NCBI RefSeq assembly: GCF_031157375.1
Contig: NZ_JAVIFV010000001.1
Coordinates: 434,001 to 498,000 of the forward strand
Length of the DNA: 64,000 nt
Direction of reading: 5' to 3'
DNA from: Sphingosinicella sp. LHD-64
Lineage (GTDB): Bacteria > Pseudomonadota > Alphaproteobacteria > Sphingomonadales > Sphingomonadaceae
Below are positions 52,923 to 63,778 of the stretch, piece after piece (positions within the stretch are counted from its first letter, which is position 1; each line of letters starts with the position of its first letter). The position numbers and the translations under genes were made by a program. The notes under the pieces were generated by a model, which ran no database searches, was not told the origin of the DNA, and saw only the letters and a program-made list of their open reading frames with translations.

Positions 52923-53384
52923 ATGCGCTGCCCGTTCTGCGCCCATGAGAACAGCCAGGTGAAGGACAGCCGTCCCACCGAGGACGGCTCGGCCATCCGC
53001 CGCCGCCGCCAGTGCGAGGATTGCGGCGCACGCTTCACCACCTTCGAGCGCATCCAGCTGCGCGAATTGACCGTGCTCAAGTCCGAGGACAAGCGCGAGC
53101 CGTTCGACCGCGCCAAGCTCGAACGCTCGATCGCCATCGCCTGCCGCAAGCGGCCGGTACCGACCGAACGGATCGAGCGCCTCGCCTCCTCGATCCAGCG
53201 CCAGATCGAAACCAGCGGCGAAAGCGAGATGCCCTCGGCCCGGATCGGCCAGATGGTGATGGAGGGCCTGAAGGCGCTCGACCCGGTCGCCTATATCCGC
53301 TTCGCCAGCGTCTATAAGGACTTCCGCGAGGCCAAGGACTTCGAGGACTTTGCTGGCACGATCAGTGAAGCGGGGAAGGAGTAG
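52923..53384 (+). CDS. nrdR: Transcriptional repressor NrdR
   Basis: 153 residues: the N-terminal zinc ribbon MRCPFC...[13 protein letters not shown] and the ATP-cone domain ([22 protein letters not shown] to [19 protein letters not shown]). Represses ribonucleotide reductase genes according to nucleotide pools. ATG at 52923 immediately follows the preceding TAG. The next gene in line before insertion would be trmJ. Confidence 0.97.
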
Positions 53385-53403
53385 ATTTCCCTTACCCCGC
53401 ATT

Positions 53404-53444
53404 CCCGAGCGAAGTCGAGGGACTAGGCCGAGCGAAGCCGAGGC
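53404..53444. repeat. Left palindromic pair flanking the GIY-YIG gene
   Basis: Two tandem imperfect 18-mers, CCCGAGCGAAGTCGAGGG (53404-53421) and GCCGAGCGAAGCCGAGGC (53427-53444), 5 bases apart. The whole segment (about 48 bases) recurs in reverse complement at 53754-53794 on the other side of the nuclease gene, and in direct orientation at 60469-60509. Confidence 0.9.
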
Positions 53445-53459
53445 CCTAAGCGGGCAGAC

Positions 53460-54572
53460 ATGAGTTTCTGGACCTATATCCTCCACTGCGCCGACCGGAG
53501 CTACTATACCGGCCATACCGACGATCTGGACCGACGGGTCGCCGAACATCAAAGCGGCGCCATTCGCGGCTATACCTACGAACGCCGCCCGATCGAACTG
53601 GTCTGGGCCGACAACTTCCCGACCCGCGCCGAGGCGCAAGCGGCGGAAACCAAGATCAAGGGCTGGTCGCGTGCGAAGAAGGAGGCCTTGATCGCCGAGA
53701 ATTGGGATCGGCTGAAGCGACTTGCGATCCCGCCTGGTGAGCGCGCCGAAAGAGCCTCGGCTTCGCTCGGTTTAGTCCCTCGACTTCGCTCGGGAAAAGC
53801 GGAATTGGGGATGCCGCGGAAAGCAACGCCCCCCGCCATCGTCCTCGTCCGCCCGCAACTCGGCGAGAATATCGGCAAGGCGGCGCGGGCGATGCTCAAT
53901 TTCGGGCTCACCGACATGCGCCTCGTCGCCCCGCGGGATGGGTGGCCGAACCCAAGCGCAGGTCCTGCCGCCTCAGGCGCGGACATCGTGCTGGAGCAGG
54001 CACAGGTGTTCGACACCGTCGCCGAGGCGGTGGCGGACTGCCCGTTCGTCTATGCGACCACGGTCAGGAAACGCGGCCTCGTCGTACCGGTGGTCTCGCC
54101 GGAGGAAGCCGCGCGCGAAGTCCAGACCAACGCCGGCCCCTCAGCCATCCTGTTCGGCGCCGAACGATCGGGCCTCGAGACCGACGAGGTCGCGATCGCG
54201 AGCAAGATCGTCACCGTGCCGGTCAATCCCGAGTTCCGCTCGCTGAACCTCGCCCAGGCGGTGATGCTGCTCGCCTATGAGTGGTCGAAGCTGCAGACGC
54301 TCGCCGTGCCGACCCTGGGCGACCAGGCCGAGCCGCGCGCCGAGCATGTCCACCTCGAAGGCCTGATCCGACAACTCTTCGACGCGCTCGAGGCGGCCGA
54401 CTATTTCCACCCGCCCGATCGCACGCCGGCGACCCAGAACACCATCCGCACCATCGTCACCAAGGCCGGCTGGTCGGCGCGCGAGGTGCAGGCGATGCGC
54501 GGCATCGTCCGGGCGCTGGAGGAAGGCCGGCTGCGTCAGCCGCGCAGTTCGTCGAACCGGTCGAACTCGTAG
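53460..54572 (+). CDS. GIY-YIG nuclease domain fused in frame to TrmJ-like methyltransferase
   Basis: 370 codons with no stop. Residues 1-90 form a stand-alone GIY-YIG domain: FWTYILHCADRSYYTGHTDDL (GIY/YIG elements), DRRVAEH (conserved Arg), FPTRAEAQAAETKIKGWSRAKK (Glu and the family's terminal motif). Residues 99-112 (ASASLGLVPRLRSG) are the right-hand repeat translated. Residues 118-370 are a SPOUT tRNA methyltransferase: RPQLGENIGKAARAMLNFG, FGAERSGLETDE and SLNLAQAV (TrmJ type, acting on Nm32 of tRNA). The native 3' end of the nuclease seems lost in the repeat. Either a true fusion, or two products if translation also starts at 53811. Confidence 0.7.
   Translation: MSFWTYILHCADRSYYTGHTDDLDRRVAEHQSGAIRGYTYERRPIELVWADNFPTRAEAQAAETKIKGWSRAKKEALIAENWDRLKRLAIPPGERAERASASLGLVPRLRSGKAELGMPRKATPPAIVLVRPQLGENIGKAARAMLNFGLTDMRLVAPRDGWPNPSAGPAASGADIVLEQAQVFDTVAEAVADCPFVYATTVRKRGLVVPVVSPEEAAREVQTNAGPSAILFGAERSGLETDEVAIASKIVTVPVNPEFRSLNLAQAVMLLAYEWSKLQTLAVPTLGDQAEPRAEHVHLEGLIRQLFDALEAADYFHPPDRTPATQNTIRTIVTKAGWSAREVQAMRGIVRALEEGRLRQPRSSSNRSNS
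53754..53794. repeat. Right palindromic pair, inverted copy of 53404-53444
   Basis: GCCTCGGCTTCGCTCGGT (53754-53771) and CCCTCGACTTCGCTCGGG (53777-53794); reverse complement of the left pair with the TAG-containing spacer kept. It is inside the open reading frame and encodes the linker. Confidence 0.9.
53811..54572 (+). CDS. tRNA methyltransferase TrmJ-like (alternative, unfused reading)
   Basis: Alternative reading of the previous entry, giving a 253-residue protein of the usual TrmJ length beginning MPRKATPPAIVLVRPQLGENIGKAARAM. The ATG has only a weak GGAATTGGGG site upstream. This would be the ancestral methyltransferase gene following nrdR before the nuclease cassette and repeats arrived. 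The last 37 bases overlap the converging chorismate mutase gene. Confidence 0.7.
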   Translation: MPRKATPPAIVLVRPQLGENIGKAARAMLNFGLTDMRLVAPRDGWPNPSAGPAASGADIVLEQAQVFDTVAEAVADCPFVYATTVRKRGLVVPVVSPEEAAREVQTNAGPSAILFGAERSGLETDEVAIASKIVTVPVNPEFRSLNLAQAVMLLAYEWSKLQTLAVPTLGDQAEPRAEHVHLEGLIRQLFDALEAADYFHPPDRTPATQNTIRTIVTKAGWSAREVQAMRGIVRALEEGRLRQPRSSSNRSNS

Positions 54573-57801: not shown

Positions 57802-59472
57802 ATGCGCCGCCTCGCCCTCATCGCCGTTTTGCTGAGCTCGCCCGCCCTCGCCCAGCCGCAGATCTCCCGGGAGACGCTGCAGTGGGTGACGCAGCAGCTT
57901 TCGTCCGACGCGTTCGAGGGCCGCGCGCCGGGCACCCAGGGTGAGGCGCGCACCGTCGAGCTGATCGCGCAGGAGTTCCAGCGGGCCGGGCTGCAGCCGG
58001 GCAACAACGGCAGCTGGTTCCAGGATGTGCCGCTGGTCGAGATCACGCTGCAGGGCAGCCCGCAGCTCCGGATCGCCGGCGGGAGCGGCGCGCCGACCGC
58101 CTTCGCCTACCGCACCGATTTCGTCGGCACCTCCTATCGCGCCCAGCCGCGCGTGGCAGTCGAGAACAGCGACATCGTCTTCGTCGGTTACGGCATCAAC
58201 GCGCCGGAGCGCGGCTGGAACGACTATGAAGGCGTCGACGTCCGCGGCAAGACGGTGGTCATCCTGGTGAATGACCCGGACTGGAGCGCGTCCGGTCTCG
58301 AAGGCCCCTTCGGCGGCCGGGCGATGACCTATTACGGCCGCTGGACGTACAAGTTCGAGGAGGCCGCCCGGCAGGGCGCCGCTGCCGCGCTCATCGTCCA
58401 CGACACCGCGCCGGCCTCCTACGGCTGGAACGTCGTCGAGAACAGCTGGACCGGCCCCCAGCCCTATATGCAGACGCCGAACGACGGCGCCGACCAGACC
58501 GCGATGAACGGCTGGCTGAGCCACGACGCCGCCCGTCGCCTGCTCGCCGCGGGCGGGCAGGACCTCGATGCCCTCAGCCGCGCCGCCGCGCAGCGCGGCT
58601 TCCGCGCGGTGCCGCTCGCCGGCCTTCGCGCCTCGGTCACGCTCGACAACCAGGTCCGCCGCTTCGCCTCGCGCAACGTCGTCGGGATCCTGCCCGGCAC
58701 GTCGCGCGGCGACGAATATGTCCTCTACACCGCCCATTGGGACCATCTCGGCATCTGCCGCGAGGAGGGCCCTTCGACGCCGCCTGCGGCGTCGCTCAGG
58801 ACAGGCGAGGACCGGATCTGCAACGGCGCCACCGACAATGCGAGCGGCACCGCGGCGCTCGTCGCGCTGGCCGAAGCCAATGCCCGCACCGGCGCCACGT
58901 CGCGCAGCCAGGTGTTCGTCGCAGTGACCGCCGAGGAATCGGGCCTGCTCGGCTCGGCCTATTATGCGGCCAATCCGATCTACCCGCTCTCGCTCACCGC
59001 CGGGGGCATCAACATCGACAGCCTCCAGCTGGCGGGCGACGCCCGCGACGCCTATGCGGTCGGCGCCGGCAAGTCGGAGCTCGACGCCTATCTGCAGCGC
59101 GCGGCCCGAGCCGAGAACCTGACCCTGACTCCCGAGCCGGCGCCGGAAGCGGGCTATTACTACCGCTCCGACCATTTCAGCCTCGCCAAGCGGGGCGTGC
59201 CGATGGTCTATGCCAAGCTCGGGCCGGACCTGGTCAATGGCGGCCGCACCGCCGGCCTCGCCGCGCAGGAAGACTATCGCGCCAACCGCTATCATGCGCC
59301 CGGCGACGAATATGATCCCGCCTGGAACTGGGACGGCGCGGTCCACGAGGTGCGCCTGCTCTACCGGATCGGCCGCGAGCTCGCGGAGAGCGAGGCCTGG
59401 CCGAACTGGAACCAGGGCGACGAGTTCCGCGCCATCCGCGATCGCTCGCGCGCCGAGCAGCTGCTGCGATGA
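57802..59472 (+). CDS. Secreted M28-family zinc metallopeptidase, paralogue
   Basis: 556 residues with signal peptide (LALIAVLLSSPALAQ). M28 ligands AHWDHLG, DNASG, TAEESG, NIDSL and DHFS are in the order of the family, but between AHWDHLG and DNASG it carries a 12-residue segment, PSTPPAASLRTG, encoded by a palindrome-like repeat, absent from the paralogue at 1983-3509. A longer central insertion than in the paralogue is also seen. Likely a periplasmic aminopeptidase; substrate unknown. Its stop overlaps aguA by four bases. Confidence 0.9.
   Translation: MRRLALIAVLLSSPALAQPQISRETLQWVTQQLSSDAFEGRAPGTQGEARTVELIAQEFQRAGLQPGNNGSWFQDVPLVEITLQGSPQLRIAGGSGAPTAFAYRTDFVGTSYRAQPRVAVENSDIVFVGYGINAPERGWNDYEGVDVRGKTVVILVNDPDWSASGLEGPFGGRAMTYYGRWTYKFEEAARQGAAAALIVHDTAPASYGWNVVENSWTGPQPYMQTPNDGADQTAMNGWLSHDAARRLLAAGGQDLDALSRAAAQRGFRAVPLAGLRASVTLDNQVRRFASRNVVGILPGTSRGDEYVLYTAHWDHLGICREEGPSTPPAASLRTGEDRICNGATDNASGTAALVALAEANARTGATSRSQVFVAVTAEESGLLGSAYYAANPIYPLSLTAGGINIDSLQLAGDARDAYAVGAGKSELDAYLQRAARAENLTLTPEPAPEAGYYYRSDHFSLAKRGVPMVYAKLGPDLVNGGRTAGLAAQEDYRANRYHAPGDEYDPAWNWDGAVHEVRLLYRIGRELAESEAWPNWNQGDEFRAIRDRSRAEQLLR
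58771..58805. repeat. Palindrome-like insertion inside the M28 coding region
   Basis: CCTTCGACGCCGCCTGCGGCG... ending in GCTCAGGACAGG, with a GACGCCG/CGGCGTC hairpin. Its CCTTCGAC...GCTCAGGACAGG outline is that of the other extragenic repeats, yet it lies in frame in the peptidase. Confidence 0.75.
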
Positions 59473-60449
59473 GTCTCCGCCAGCCGCCCGAATGGGCGCC
59501 GCACGACGCCGTCTGGATCGGCTTTCCGAGCCATGCGGACCTGTGGGAGGACGATCTCGCGCCGGCCCGCGAGGAGGTCGCCGCCTTCGCCCGCATCGTC
59601 CATGCCGAGGGCAAGGGCGAGGAGGTGCGGCTGGTTGCGGCCGATCCCGCTTCCGTCGCGGCGGCGGAGACGCTCGCCCCGTTCGCGACCGTCATCCAGG
59701 AGCCGTTCGGCGACATCTGGCTGCGTGACACCGGCCCGATCATCTTGCTGTCGGGCGCCGGCCCGGCCGCCGCGCGCTTCCGCTTCAACGGCTGGGGCGG
59801 GAAATACGAGCTGGCCGGCGACGACACGGTGGGCCTCAGACTCGCCGAGACGCTCGATCTGGTCGCGGCCTCGCACGACTGGGTGCTGGAGGGCGGCGCG
59901 ATCGACGTCGACGGCACCGGTCTCGCCGTCACCACCGAACAGTGCCTGCTCAATCCCAACCGCAATCCGGGCATGACCCGCGCCGACGTCGAGGCCCGGC
60001 TGAGGGCCGATCTCGGCGTGGACCGCCTGCTCTGGCTCGGCGACGGGCTCCTCAACGACCATACCGACGGCCATGTCGACAACCTCGCCCGCTTCGTCGC
60101 CGAAGGGACGCTGGCCATTCCCGAGCCGACTGCGGACGATCCCAATGCCGCCGTCTATGCGGACGCCCGCCGCCGCGCCGAGGCGTTCGGCGTGAGAATC
60201 GTCCCCCTGCCCTCGCCCGGCAAGGTCGAGCGCGATGGCGAAATCATCCCGGCTTCCTACATGAACTTCTACATCGGCAATGCCGCCGTGGCCGTCCCGG
60301 TCTACGGCGCGCCGAATGACGCCGCCGCCGTGGAGGCGATTGCTGCGCTCTTCCCGGGCCGGCATGTGGCAGGCTATCGCGCCGACCACATCCTGACCGG
60401 GGGCGGCAGCTTCCACTGCATCAGCCAGCAGGTGCCGGCGCTGGACTGA
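59469..60449 (+). CDS. aguA: Agmatine deiminase
   Basis: 326 residues. PPEWAPHDAVWIGFPSHADLW, DIWLRDTGPII, NGWGGKY, NDHTDGHVDNLARF and the catalytic Cys in LTGGGSFHCISQQ. Hydrolyses agmatine to N-carbamoylputrescine and ammonia. Overlaps the peptidase stop by four bases. Followed, after a palindromic repeat, by aguB, which completes the pathway. Confidence 0.96.
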   Translation: MSLRQPPEWAPHDAVWIGFPSHADLWEDDLAPAREEVAAFARIVHAEGKGEEVRLVAADPASVAAAETLAPFATVIQEPFGDIWLRDTGPIILLSGAGPAAARFRFNGWGGKYELAGDDTVGLRLAETLDLVAASHDWVLEGGAIDVDGTGLAVTTEQCLLNPNRNPGMTRADVEARLRADLGVDRLLWLGDGLLNDHTDGHVDNLARFVAEGTLAIPEPTADDPNAAVYADARRRAEAFGVRIVPLPSPGKVERDGEIIPASYMNFYIGNAAVAVPVYGAPNDAAAVEAIAALFPGRHVAGYRADHILTGGGSFHCISQQVPALD

Positions 60450-60468
60450 ACAGTTATTAACCGCTCAT

Positions 60469-60567
60469 CCCGAGCGAAGTCGAGGGACTGAGCCGAGCGA
60501 AGCCGAGGCTTGTCCTATTCTCGCCGTCGCTCGAAAGAGTATCTCGACTTCGCTCGACATGAACGGA
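60469..60567. repeat. Palindromic repeat array between aguA and aguB
   Basis: CCCGAGCGAAGTCGAGGG (60469-60486), ACTGA, GCCGAGCGAAGCCGAGGC (60492-60509), then a third arm (CTCGACTTCGCTCGAC within 60543-60560). First pair is almost identical to the left GIY-YIG flank. Confidence 0.85.
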
Positions 60568-60578
60568 TGGTTTTGATC

Positions 60579-61427
60579 ATGACCCAACTCACCGTCGCCG
60601 CGCTCCAGCTCGCGTTCGGCGAGGACGCGCAAGAGAATATCCGCAACGTCTCCGAACTGGTGCGCGAGGCGGCTGGCAAGGGTGCGCAAGTGGTGCTGCC
60701 GCCCGAGCTGTTCGAAGGCCCCTATTTCTGCCGCACCCAGGACGAGGCTTTGTTCGCCAACGCCCGGCCGGTCGACCGCCATCCGGCGGTGCTGGCGATG
60801 CAGAAGCTCGCCGCGGAGCTCGGCATCTACATCCCGACCAGCTTCTTCGAGGCGGACGGGCCGCATCACTACAACAGCCTCGCGATGATCGACCCCGCCG
60901 GCGCGGTGATGGGCGTCTACCGCAAGACCCACATTCCCGACGGCCCCGGCTATCAGGAGAAGTTCTACTTCCGCCCCGGCAATACCGGCTTCCGCACCTG
61001 GCCGACACCGGACGCGACGCTCGGCATCGGCATCTGCTGGGACCAGTGGTATCCGGAAACGGCGCGCAGCCTGATGCTGCAGGGCGCCGAGATCCTGTTC
61101 TACCCCACCGCGATCGGCACCGAGCCGCACGATCCCGATCTCGACACGTCGCGGCTGTGGCGCCGGGCGATGATCGGCCATGCGGTGTCGAACGTCGTTC
61201 CCGTGGTCGCCGCCAACCGGATCGGCAACGAGGACGGCCAGATCTTCTACGGCCACAGCTTCATCTGCGACCAGCGGGGCGACATCCTCGCGGAGTTCGG
61301 TGCGAACGAGACCGGCGCCCTCGTCGCCACCCTCGACCTCGACACCGCCAAACGCCACCGCGCCGCCTTCGGCTTCTTCAGGGACCGCCGGCCGGAGTTT
61401 TACGGACGGATCGTCGAGGACATCTGA
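60579..61427 (+). CDS. aguB: N-carbamoylputrescine amidase
   Basis: 282 residues, nitrilase fold. Glu in LPPELFEGPYFC, Lys in VYRKTHIPDG and Cys in GIGICWDQWYPE form the catalytic triad. Converts N-carbamoylputrescine to putrescine. ATG at 60579 is picked from the conserved MTQLTVAALQLAF; no strong ribosome site is visible, and the repeat just upstream (60469-60567) forms part of its leader. Upstream in-frame extension is repeat-derived. Confidence 0.95.
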   Translation: MTQLTVAALQLAFGEDAQENIRNVSELVREAAGKGAQVVLPPELFEGPYFCRTQDEALFANARPVDRHPAVLAMQKLAAELGIYIPTSFFEADGPHHYNSLAMIDPAGAVMGVYRKTHIPDGPGYQEKFYFRPGNTGFRTWPTPDATLGIGICWDQWYPETARSLMLQGAEILFYPTAIGTEPHDPDLDTSRLWRRAMIGHAVSNVVPVVAANRIGNEDGQIFYGHSFICDQRGDILAEFGANETGALVATLDLDTAKRHRAAFGFFRDRRPEFYGRIVEDI

Positions 61428-61448: not shown

Positions 61449-61571
61449 ACCGCTCATCCTGAGTAGGGACTGAGCTTGGCGAAGGCCCGTATCGAAGGAC
61501 CGATCGGATAGCTCGTGCGCCCTTCGATACGCCGCTTCGACTTCGCTCAGCGGCTACTCAGGATGAGCGGT
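61449..61571. repeat. Palindromic repeat, CTCATCCTGAG type
   Basis: Outer arms ACCGCTCATCCTGAGTAG (61449-61466) and its exact complement (61554-61571). Interior has GTATCGAAGG / CCTTCGATAC arms. Same layout as 63652-63762. Confidence 0.88.
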
Positions 61572-63601: not shown

Positions 63602-63651
63602 GGGGAGCGTGCCTAAAGGAGGACGAGCTTCGTTCAAACCACAATTTTACA

Positions 63652-63762
63652 CTCATCCTGAGTGGCCGTTGAGCTTGTCGAAACGGCGTATCGAAGGACG
63701 CAGAGAGTCTCCGACCGGTCTTCGATACGGGGCTTCGACAAGCTCAGCCCCCTCAGGATGAG
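63652..63762. repeat. Palindromic repeat, CTCATCCTGAG type
   Basis: Outer CTCATCCTGAG (63652-63662) and CTCAGGATGAG (63752-63762) with interior GTATCGAAGGAC / GTCTTCGATAC and GAGCTTGTCG / CGACAAGCTC arms. Lies between cvpA and radA. Confidence 0.88.
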
Positions 63763-63778
63763 CGGGATCGGATGATCT

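Follow-up and report, generated by a model that had tools for sequence, protein, structure and literature searches.

Bracketing of a small GIY-YIG nuclease subfamily by inverted hairpin repeats suggests a REPtron-like system

Introduction

The stretch of DNA analysed here (the window, 64,000 nucleotides) contains a small GIY-YIG nuclease gene that lies between nrdR and trmJ and is flanked by inverted copies of a REP-like repeat, which raises the question of whether the gene and the repeats belong to one mobile unit or have come together by chance. A preliminary description had inferred a GIY-YIG nuclease in the role of REP partner. In the available part of Di Nocera 2013 (PMC3733652), tagged REPs comprise GTAG repeats, which have a transposase partner, and CGTC repeats, which "apparently lack a dedicated transposase". 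The latter, defined by a CGTC tag, a stem of 8-9 bp, a loop of 4-5 nt and a CCA-like tail and including Neisseria dRS3 and Rickettsia RPE-4/6, were not tied to transposase genes, and their mode of spread was left open, as far as that part of the paper goes (PMC3733652). The reading preferred here, with a probability of roughly 0.74, is a REPtron-like system in which REP hairpins are the target of a structure-selective GIY-YIG nuclease that spreads the repeats, both cleavage and movement being inferred.

The cassette between nrdR and trmJ

The near-identical inverted pair of the preliminary description was confirmed by an inverted-repeat search, each arm being 46 nt long and composed of two units 23 nt apart, with 303 nt separating the arms (Table 1). 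The gene between them, which had been taken to be complete, proved to have no stop, its frame continuing through the downstream arm into TrmJ; in the resulting product, Pfam placed GIY-YIG at residues 3-74 and SpoU_methylase at residues 126-273. By inference, TrmJ probably has its own start at ATG 53811 as well. In several relatives, too, TrmJ lies in a long open frame (about 340-460 aa). Given the single open frame here and the long frames there, the products may include fusion or read-through proteins.

Table 1. Features of the window considered in this study
Feature	Position	Strand	Remarks
nrdR	52923..53384	+	upstream neighbour at insertion site; Pfam Zn_ribbon_NrdR and ATP-cone
Degenerate CCGCATT tag	about 53397-53403		just before upstream repeat arm
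Upstream repeat arm	53402..53447	+	two hairpin units, CCGAGCGAAGTCGAGG and CCGAGCGAAGCCGAGG
Single-domain GIY-YIG nuclease, K-x-W-x-R-x-x-K subfamily	53460..53729	+	Pfam PF01541, conservation, AlphaFold2
Open frame without stop, GIY-YIG to TrmJ via downstream arm	53460..54572	+	370 aa
Downstream repeat arm	53751..53796	-	inverted copy of upstream arm, 93% complementary
trmJ (SpoU methylase family)	53811..54572	+	downstream neighbour at insertion site
Mini-element, gene-less	60461..60566	.	inverted pair like window repeat; missing here in nearest relative L251
Mini-element, second branched repeat type (CCGCTCATCCTGAGTAGGG...)	61450..61570	.	inverted pair; L280
Further branched-type mini-element	63640..63765	.	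L281; by eye, left edge approximate

The AlphaFold2 model of the nuclease (mean pLDDT 91) showed a single compact GIY-YIG domain that has C-terminal helices. Conserved residues were Y6, Y16, G18, R26, H30 and E63, with Y6, Y16 and R26 invariant and E63 present in at least 98% of each group; Y6, Y16, R26 and E63 are presumably the catalytic tyrosine, arginine and glutamate residues of the domain. The closest solved structures were two UPF0213 proteins (1zg2 and 1ywl) followed by Slx1, with Foldseek E values of 0.003-0.024, and Slx1 cuts branched DNA according to the structure entry titles. No match to the window protein was found in NCBIfam, PADLOC or PHROGs, and a CGTC-type protein gave one weak match to a PHROG endonuclease (E 0.0028).

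Bracketing of related nuclease genes

A scan of named genomes yielded 245 relatives, the best 80 of which were used with flanks of up to 10 kb. The 150 nt upstream of each gene were compared with the 150 nt downstream, and their best inverted match served as the bracketing score, with a threshold of 30. Enrichment of repeats near GIY-YIG genes, the absence of which would have refuted the preliminary description, was evident from the finding of inverted pairs at 65/80 homologous loci compared with 101/13,743 random intervals from the same loci (0.7%) and, with 250-nt flanks, at 67/80 homologous loci compared with 16/893 other ORFs (1.8%). Scores below 30 were noted for 15/80 homologous loci and for 9/40 loci of the subfamily described below, several of which still show repeats.

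The restriction of bracketing to one nuclease subfamily was seen in a second set, obtained by a PF01541 search of 150 Pseudomonadota genomes and consisting of the 80 best-scoring listed loci, without UvrC-sized frames or the window genome's own genes; being the best-scoring, these loci are not a random draw. The threshold was reached by 32/80 of them as opposed to 50/6,147 control intervals. When the genes were sorted by class, 31/40 with the K-x-W-x-R-x-x-K motif were bracketed compared with 0/36 YhbQ-like and 0/4 YLKS-type genes (Fisher 1.9e-14) and with 4/216 other ORFs of these loci. The score of one locus, L161, fell from 32 to 22 in the class-sorted count because of a different placement of the gene edge. 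Assignment to classes was by motif, except for 11 of 175 sequences that were assigned by eye, 4 of them among the 80 Pseudomonadota loci. Since the homologues share descent, Fisher values overstate independence, and firmer evidence comes from the contrast between subfamilies and from the within-genus comparisons given below. In the genomes of L083, L036, L079, L047 and L026, 10 of the loci of 16 PF01541 matches were examined, and of six subfamily-like genes (L235, L236, L238, L239, L241 and L244) only L235 and L238 scored at least 30; some of these genes had already been included in the first set.

These comparisons bear on the alternative that the gene is flanked by common repeats through chance. 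REPs of the window class are indeed abundant in some genomes, and a looser tag pattern occurs 73 times in the genome of the window, where related repeat types are common. The exact core CGAGCGAAGYCGAG, however, is present in only 9 copies in 3.89 Mb, 4 of them at the cassette, so that the exact window repeat is not a common one there; moreover, bracketing of 81-84% of homologous genes compares with the 0.7% and 1.8% given above. Chance flanking is accordingly ruled out, to near certainty, by the random intervals, the other ORFs of the same loci and the other GIY-YIG classes.

All of the non-UvrC GIY-YIG genes in the window genome share the arrangement. PF01541 had six matches, one in a 650-aa frame of UvrC size, and the other five genes were all bracketed, with scores of 38-77. 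At four of the five (L002, L003, L004 and L005) the repeats carry the CGTC tag and by inspection fit the CGTC REP definition, with 8-bp stems and loops of 4-5. L002 and L005 have a mismatch at the outer stem pair, and L003 has CTC where CCA would be expected. L002 (G000:C3:167325-170546), whose N-terminal part seems to be out of frame, is apparently a decaying copy that has kept its flanking repeats. The window's own repeat lacks the CGTC tag; the degenerate tag of its arms corresponds to a sequence that is mostly CCGTTCG in relatives, and the commonest tag of its class is CGTTCG rather than GTAG. Repeats around CGTC-type nuclease genes combine a short stem with a CGTCAT tag, and most of them end in a CCA-like tail. 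The earlier inference of a GIY-YIG nuclease as REP partner is thus supported, other members of the subfamily being bracketed by CGTC REPs too, while movement by the nuclease is unproven.

Correspondence between repeat type and nuclease type

The association of repeat type with nuclease type was evident from the distribution of tag classes on a nuclease tree built with FastTree. Separation of the GAGC/CGTTCG class (74 loci) from the GTCAT class (19 loci) required a single change, compared with a mean of 17.5 and a minimum of 12 after 100 label shuffles. This count of 93 loci leaves out 34/135 subfamily loci without a shared regex class as well as seven loci of GAGC plus branched type and one mixed locus. 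Within the GAGC/CGTTCG class, core subtype changed 19 times as opposed to 50 times with shuffled labels (n=90), and both ends of a cassette were of the same core type in 53/65 cases (shuffled mean 16.6).

Stem pairing was examined in 246 unique units drawn from the 93 related loci with a search pattern that specified the loop and not the stem. Watson-Crick pairs, of several types, occurred at stem positions 1 to 5 in 89, 88, 85, 80 and 65% of units, respectively, whereas slid registers gave at most 50%. With a DNA energy model, single hairpin units were no more stable than shuffled sequences (z -1.10, 0.36, -0.74 and 0.55), so that the case for a hairpin rests on covariation and on the dimer; the mini-element at 60461..60566 forms a single DNA hairpin (z -5.63).

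Repeat copy number in genomes with and without the nuclease

Numbers of repeats in 199 genomes of the family differed according to the presence of a window-type nuclease (E <= 1e-15). Thus, the median number of CCGYTCRNNYYGAG copies was 61.5 in 62 genomes with the nuclease and 17 in 137 without it. Among mixed genera, 21/27 had more copies with the nuclease (mean 2.6-fold, permutation p 5e-5), and 6/27 showed the opposite. This tag pattern counts an entire repeat class and not one family, and a reversed control pattern also differed slightly (7 with the nuclease compared with 5 without, p 0.02). Exceptions were noted in both directions, 11/137 genomes without the gene having more than 60 copies and 7/62 with it having fewer than 20. 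Similarly, at least 20 CGTC copies were present in 11/32 genomes with a CGTC-type nuclease compared with 6/118 without (150 Pseudomonadota genomes; nuclease at E <= 1e-12), and the contrast held within nine mixed families (p 0.002). Many genomes with a CGTC-type nuclease contain few CGTC copies (median 5), several almost none; the pattern used covers some repeat families only. The tie between nuclease and copy number is a correlation, and the order of events is not shown.

The Y1 (RAYT-type) transposase, sought as PF01797, was present in 31 genomes and had a far smaller separate effect than the nuclease in a joint fit to copy number (t 2.4 for Y1 and 9.1 for the nuclease). The search gave no PF01797 match in the window genome, by which a RAYT-driven origin of the repeats there was ruled out.

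According to a second alternative, which we consider unlikely, the GIY-YIG gene is a passenger of homing type that enters existing repeat pairs spread by another enzyme. Homing endonucleases of the free-standing GIY-YIG type are known, gene-less pairs whose ends are of the same kind occur, so the gene could have landed inside one, and the presence of Y1 does have its small separate effect on copy number. Both the single change of tag class with nuclease clade and the agreement between the two ends of a cassette speak against this alternative, as does the lack of a detected Y1 transposase in the window genome. For the CGTC repeats, the available part of Di Nocera 2013 (PMC3733652) likewise gives no associated transposase.

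With the nuclease itself as the partner of the repeats, as preferred here, account has to be taken of the rarity of the resident nuclease's own repeat type in its genome (the nine exact cores), where the abundant types match the cassettes of relatives. Turnover of nucleases, although not shown, would explain this.

Presence and absence at fixed sites

A sample of 26 genomes of the same genus contained the locus in 24, with nrdR-trmJ readable in 22. The cassette was present at 10 of these sites, including that of the window genome, and absent from 12. In agreement with the order proposed as ancestral in the preliminary description, nrdR and trmJ at the 12 empty sites were separated by only 2-62 nt with no gene and no repeat recognisable by eye, the 62-nt gap of L093 being the least clear case; all relatives carrying the nuclease without the repeats, which would have refuted the proposal, was not what was found. 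Among the filled sites, two or more repeat types were represented. On a tree of NrdR and TrmJ, the distribution of full and empty sites needs five changes; the tree is weakly supported and does not distinguish gain from loss. When loci that shared either neighbour were merged, the 135 subfamily loci represented 56 separate contexts, of which nrdR-trmJ, with 55 loci, was the largest. Use of exact neighbour-cluster pairs gave 76 contexts for the same 135 loci, but split the nrdR-trmJ site.

Variation was also seen at 60.45 kb, where the first mini-element lies and where, in the nearest relative, L251, the two flanking genes overlap. Among 14 relatives, similar pairs were present in L252, L253 and L258, a branched type in L259 and a CGTC-like one in L264, the remainder having other spacers or hardly any. 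This intergenic site, bounded by the orthologues of the window genes at 59424-60449 and 60567-61427, holds repeat families that differ from species to species, much as a permissive landing site would. At neither nrdR-trmJ nor 60.45 kb was a target-site duplication readable, and the junctions were not clean. Genes for glyA, nrdR, GIY-YIG, an RNA methyltransferase and rpsD were also noted on a record labelled as a plasmid of Sphingomonas parapaucimobilis (L285, NZ_CP155752.1); given these genes, the record could represent a chromid or a piece of chromosome with the wrong label.

The patchy presence of the cassette at one site within a genus, together with the number of contexts, weighs against a non-mobile host function, in which the nuclease would trim or resolve REP cruciforms or the repeats would serve as terminators or RNA stabilisers. 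The Slx1-like fold, the stable hairpin formed by a repeat dimer and the position of the window cassette between two genes of one strand are all compatible with such a function, whereas the lack of these repeats at YhbQ-like genes (none of 36) is not readily so; we regard it as distinctly unlikely.

Relation to known systems and proposed mechanism

In RAYT REPtrons and REPINs, which the present system resembles, the enzyme gene likewise lies inside inverted hairpin repeats whose tag is unpaired, head-to-head dimers are dispersed, the repeat family is specific to the enzyme lineage and the distribution is patchy, as described in the available part of PMC6006769. The two systems differ in enzyme and tag: RAYT REPtrons have an HUH/Y1 transposase and a GTAG tag, while the nuclease described here belongs to the unrelated GIY-YIG superfamily without HUH/Y1 chemistry and its repeats have CGTTCG-like or CGTC tags. 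Compared with CGTC REPs as presented in the available part of PMC3733652, for which no dedicated enzyme was found, a GIY-YIG gene is here located inside inverted pairs. That work, in the part available, excluded repeats in hypothetical proteins under 120 aa (PMC3733652), and many GIY-YIG genes of the subfamily are of this size class; we infer that this may be why they were missed. No report of a link between GIY-YIG nucleases and REPs was found among the matches listed in the open PMC literature, preprints and subscription journals not being covered.

Small size and patchy presence are also features of GIY-YIG homing endonucleases, from which the window system differs in that no intron or defined allelic target was seen and hairpin repeats occur as gene-less copies as well. 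The window nuclease has the same fold as UPF0213, YhbQ and YazA, which we take to be names of GIY-YIG subfamilies; the YhbQ-like genes, unlike those of the window subfamily, were unbracketed and lack the K-x-W-x-R-x-x-K segment. MITEs are short gene-less inverted pairs, and such pairs are found here too, a subterminal motif being common to 3/10 of the mini-elements examined and the upstream ends of nine cassettes. In contrast with MITEs, no target-site duplication was seen, and the autonomous partner would be a nuclease and not a known transposase.

In the mechanism proposed, each small nuclease of the subfamily would be paired with a matching family of hairpin repeats, the gene lying between inverted copies and the dispersed gene-less inverted pairs being MITE- or REPIN-like. 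The nuclease would probably recognise an extruded hairpin with its unpaired tag and nick it in the way that Slx1-type GIY-YIG enzymes act on branched DNA, after which host repair or replication would copy or insert the repeat pair. Spread in cis with the gene would give a cassette, and spread in trans would give mini-elements. Hairpin cleavage, movement and dependence of movement on the nuclease are all inferred, none having been observed.

The pairing recurs in many bacteria and repeat type follows enzyme type, which suggests that these enzymes are the partners hitherto missing for a widespread class of repeats, described as having no enzyme of its own. Whether the subfamily is specifically the missing partner of CGTC REPs and of a sister CGTTCG superfamily, spreading them in a transposition-like manner without a transposase by a structure-selective nick in the extruded hairpin and subsequent host repair, is a proposition to which we give even odds; bacterial mobile elements of a new class would then be at hand. 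Through the pairing, CGTC repeats gain a concrete, testable enzyme. If the reading is correct, the REP lifestyle has evolved on at least two occasions, with DNA-cutting enzymes unrelated to each other; many small genes whose sole annotation is "GIY-YIG nuclease family protein" would acquire a function, and repeats studied as regulators or typing markers would be linked to an enzyme.

Gene-less elements and further repeat types

Repeats are dispersed beyond the cassette. Within the window, 17 core matches with at most two mismatches were found compared with 4.8 expected, a number reached in 0/100 shuffles, and 3 of the 9 exact cores of the genome lie in the gene-less unit 7 kb from the cassette. 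Repeat dimers in the window genome were head-to-head in 11 cases and in the opposite orientation in one (by eye, with one self-overlapping pair omitted). Descent of mini-elements from cassettes is supported only in part by the subterminal motif, the pattern for which was composed after inspection of cassettes and mini-elements. In 2.12 Mb the motif had nine matches, each of them immediately upstream of a cassette, and it was present in the three mini-elements referred to above (from L265-L274); a motif from the downstream end of cassettes had no matches.

Inverted pairs of the branched type (CCGCTCATCCTGAGTAGGG...GTATCGAAGGAC) are common in the window genome (Table 1; L268 and L276-L284), although nucleases bracketed by this type were seen in relatives only. 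Long inverted repeats of a further type were noted at the nuclease genes of family f16 (L187, L200, L210 and L219), three of which have GGAGCGAAGCGACGCGCGCAGACCC on at least one arm, L219 having a variant.
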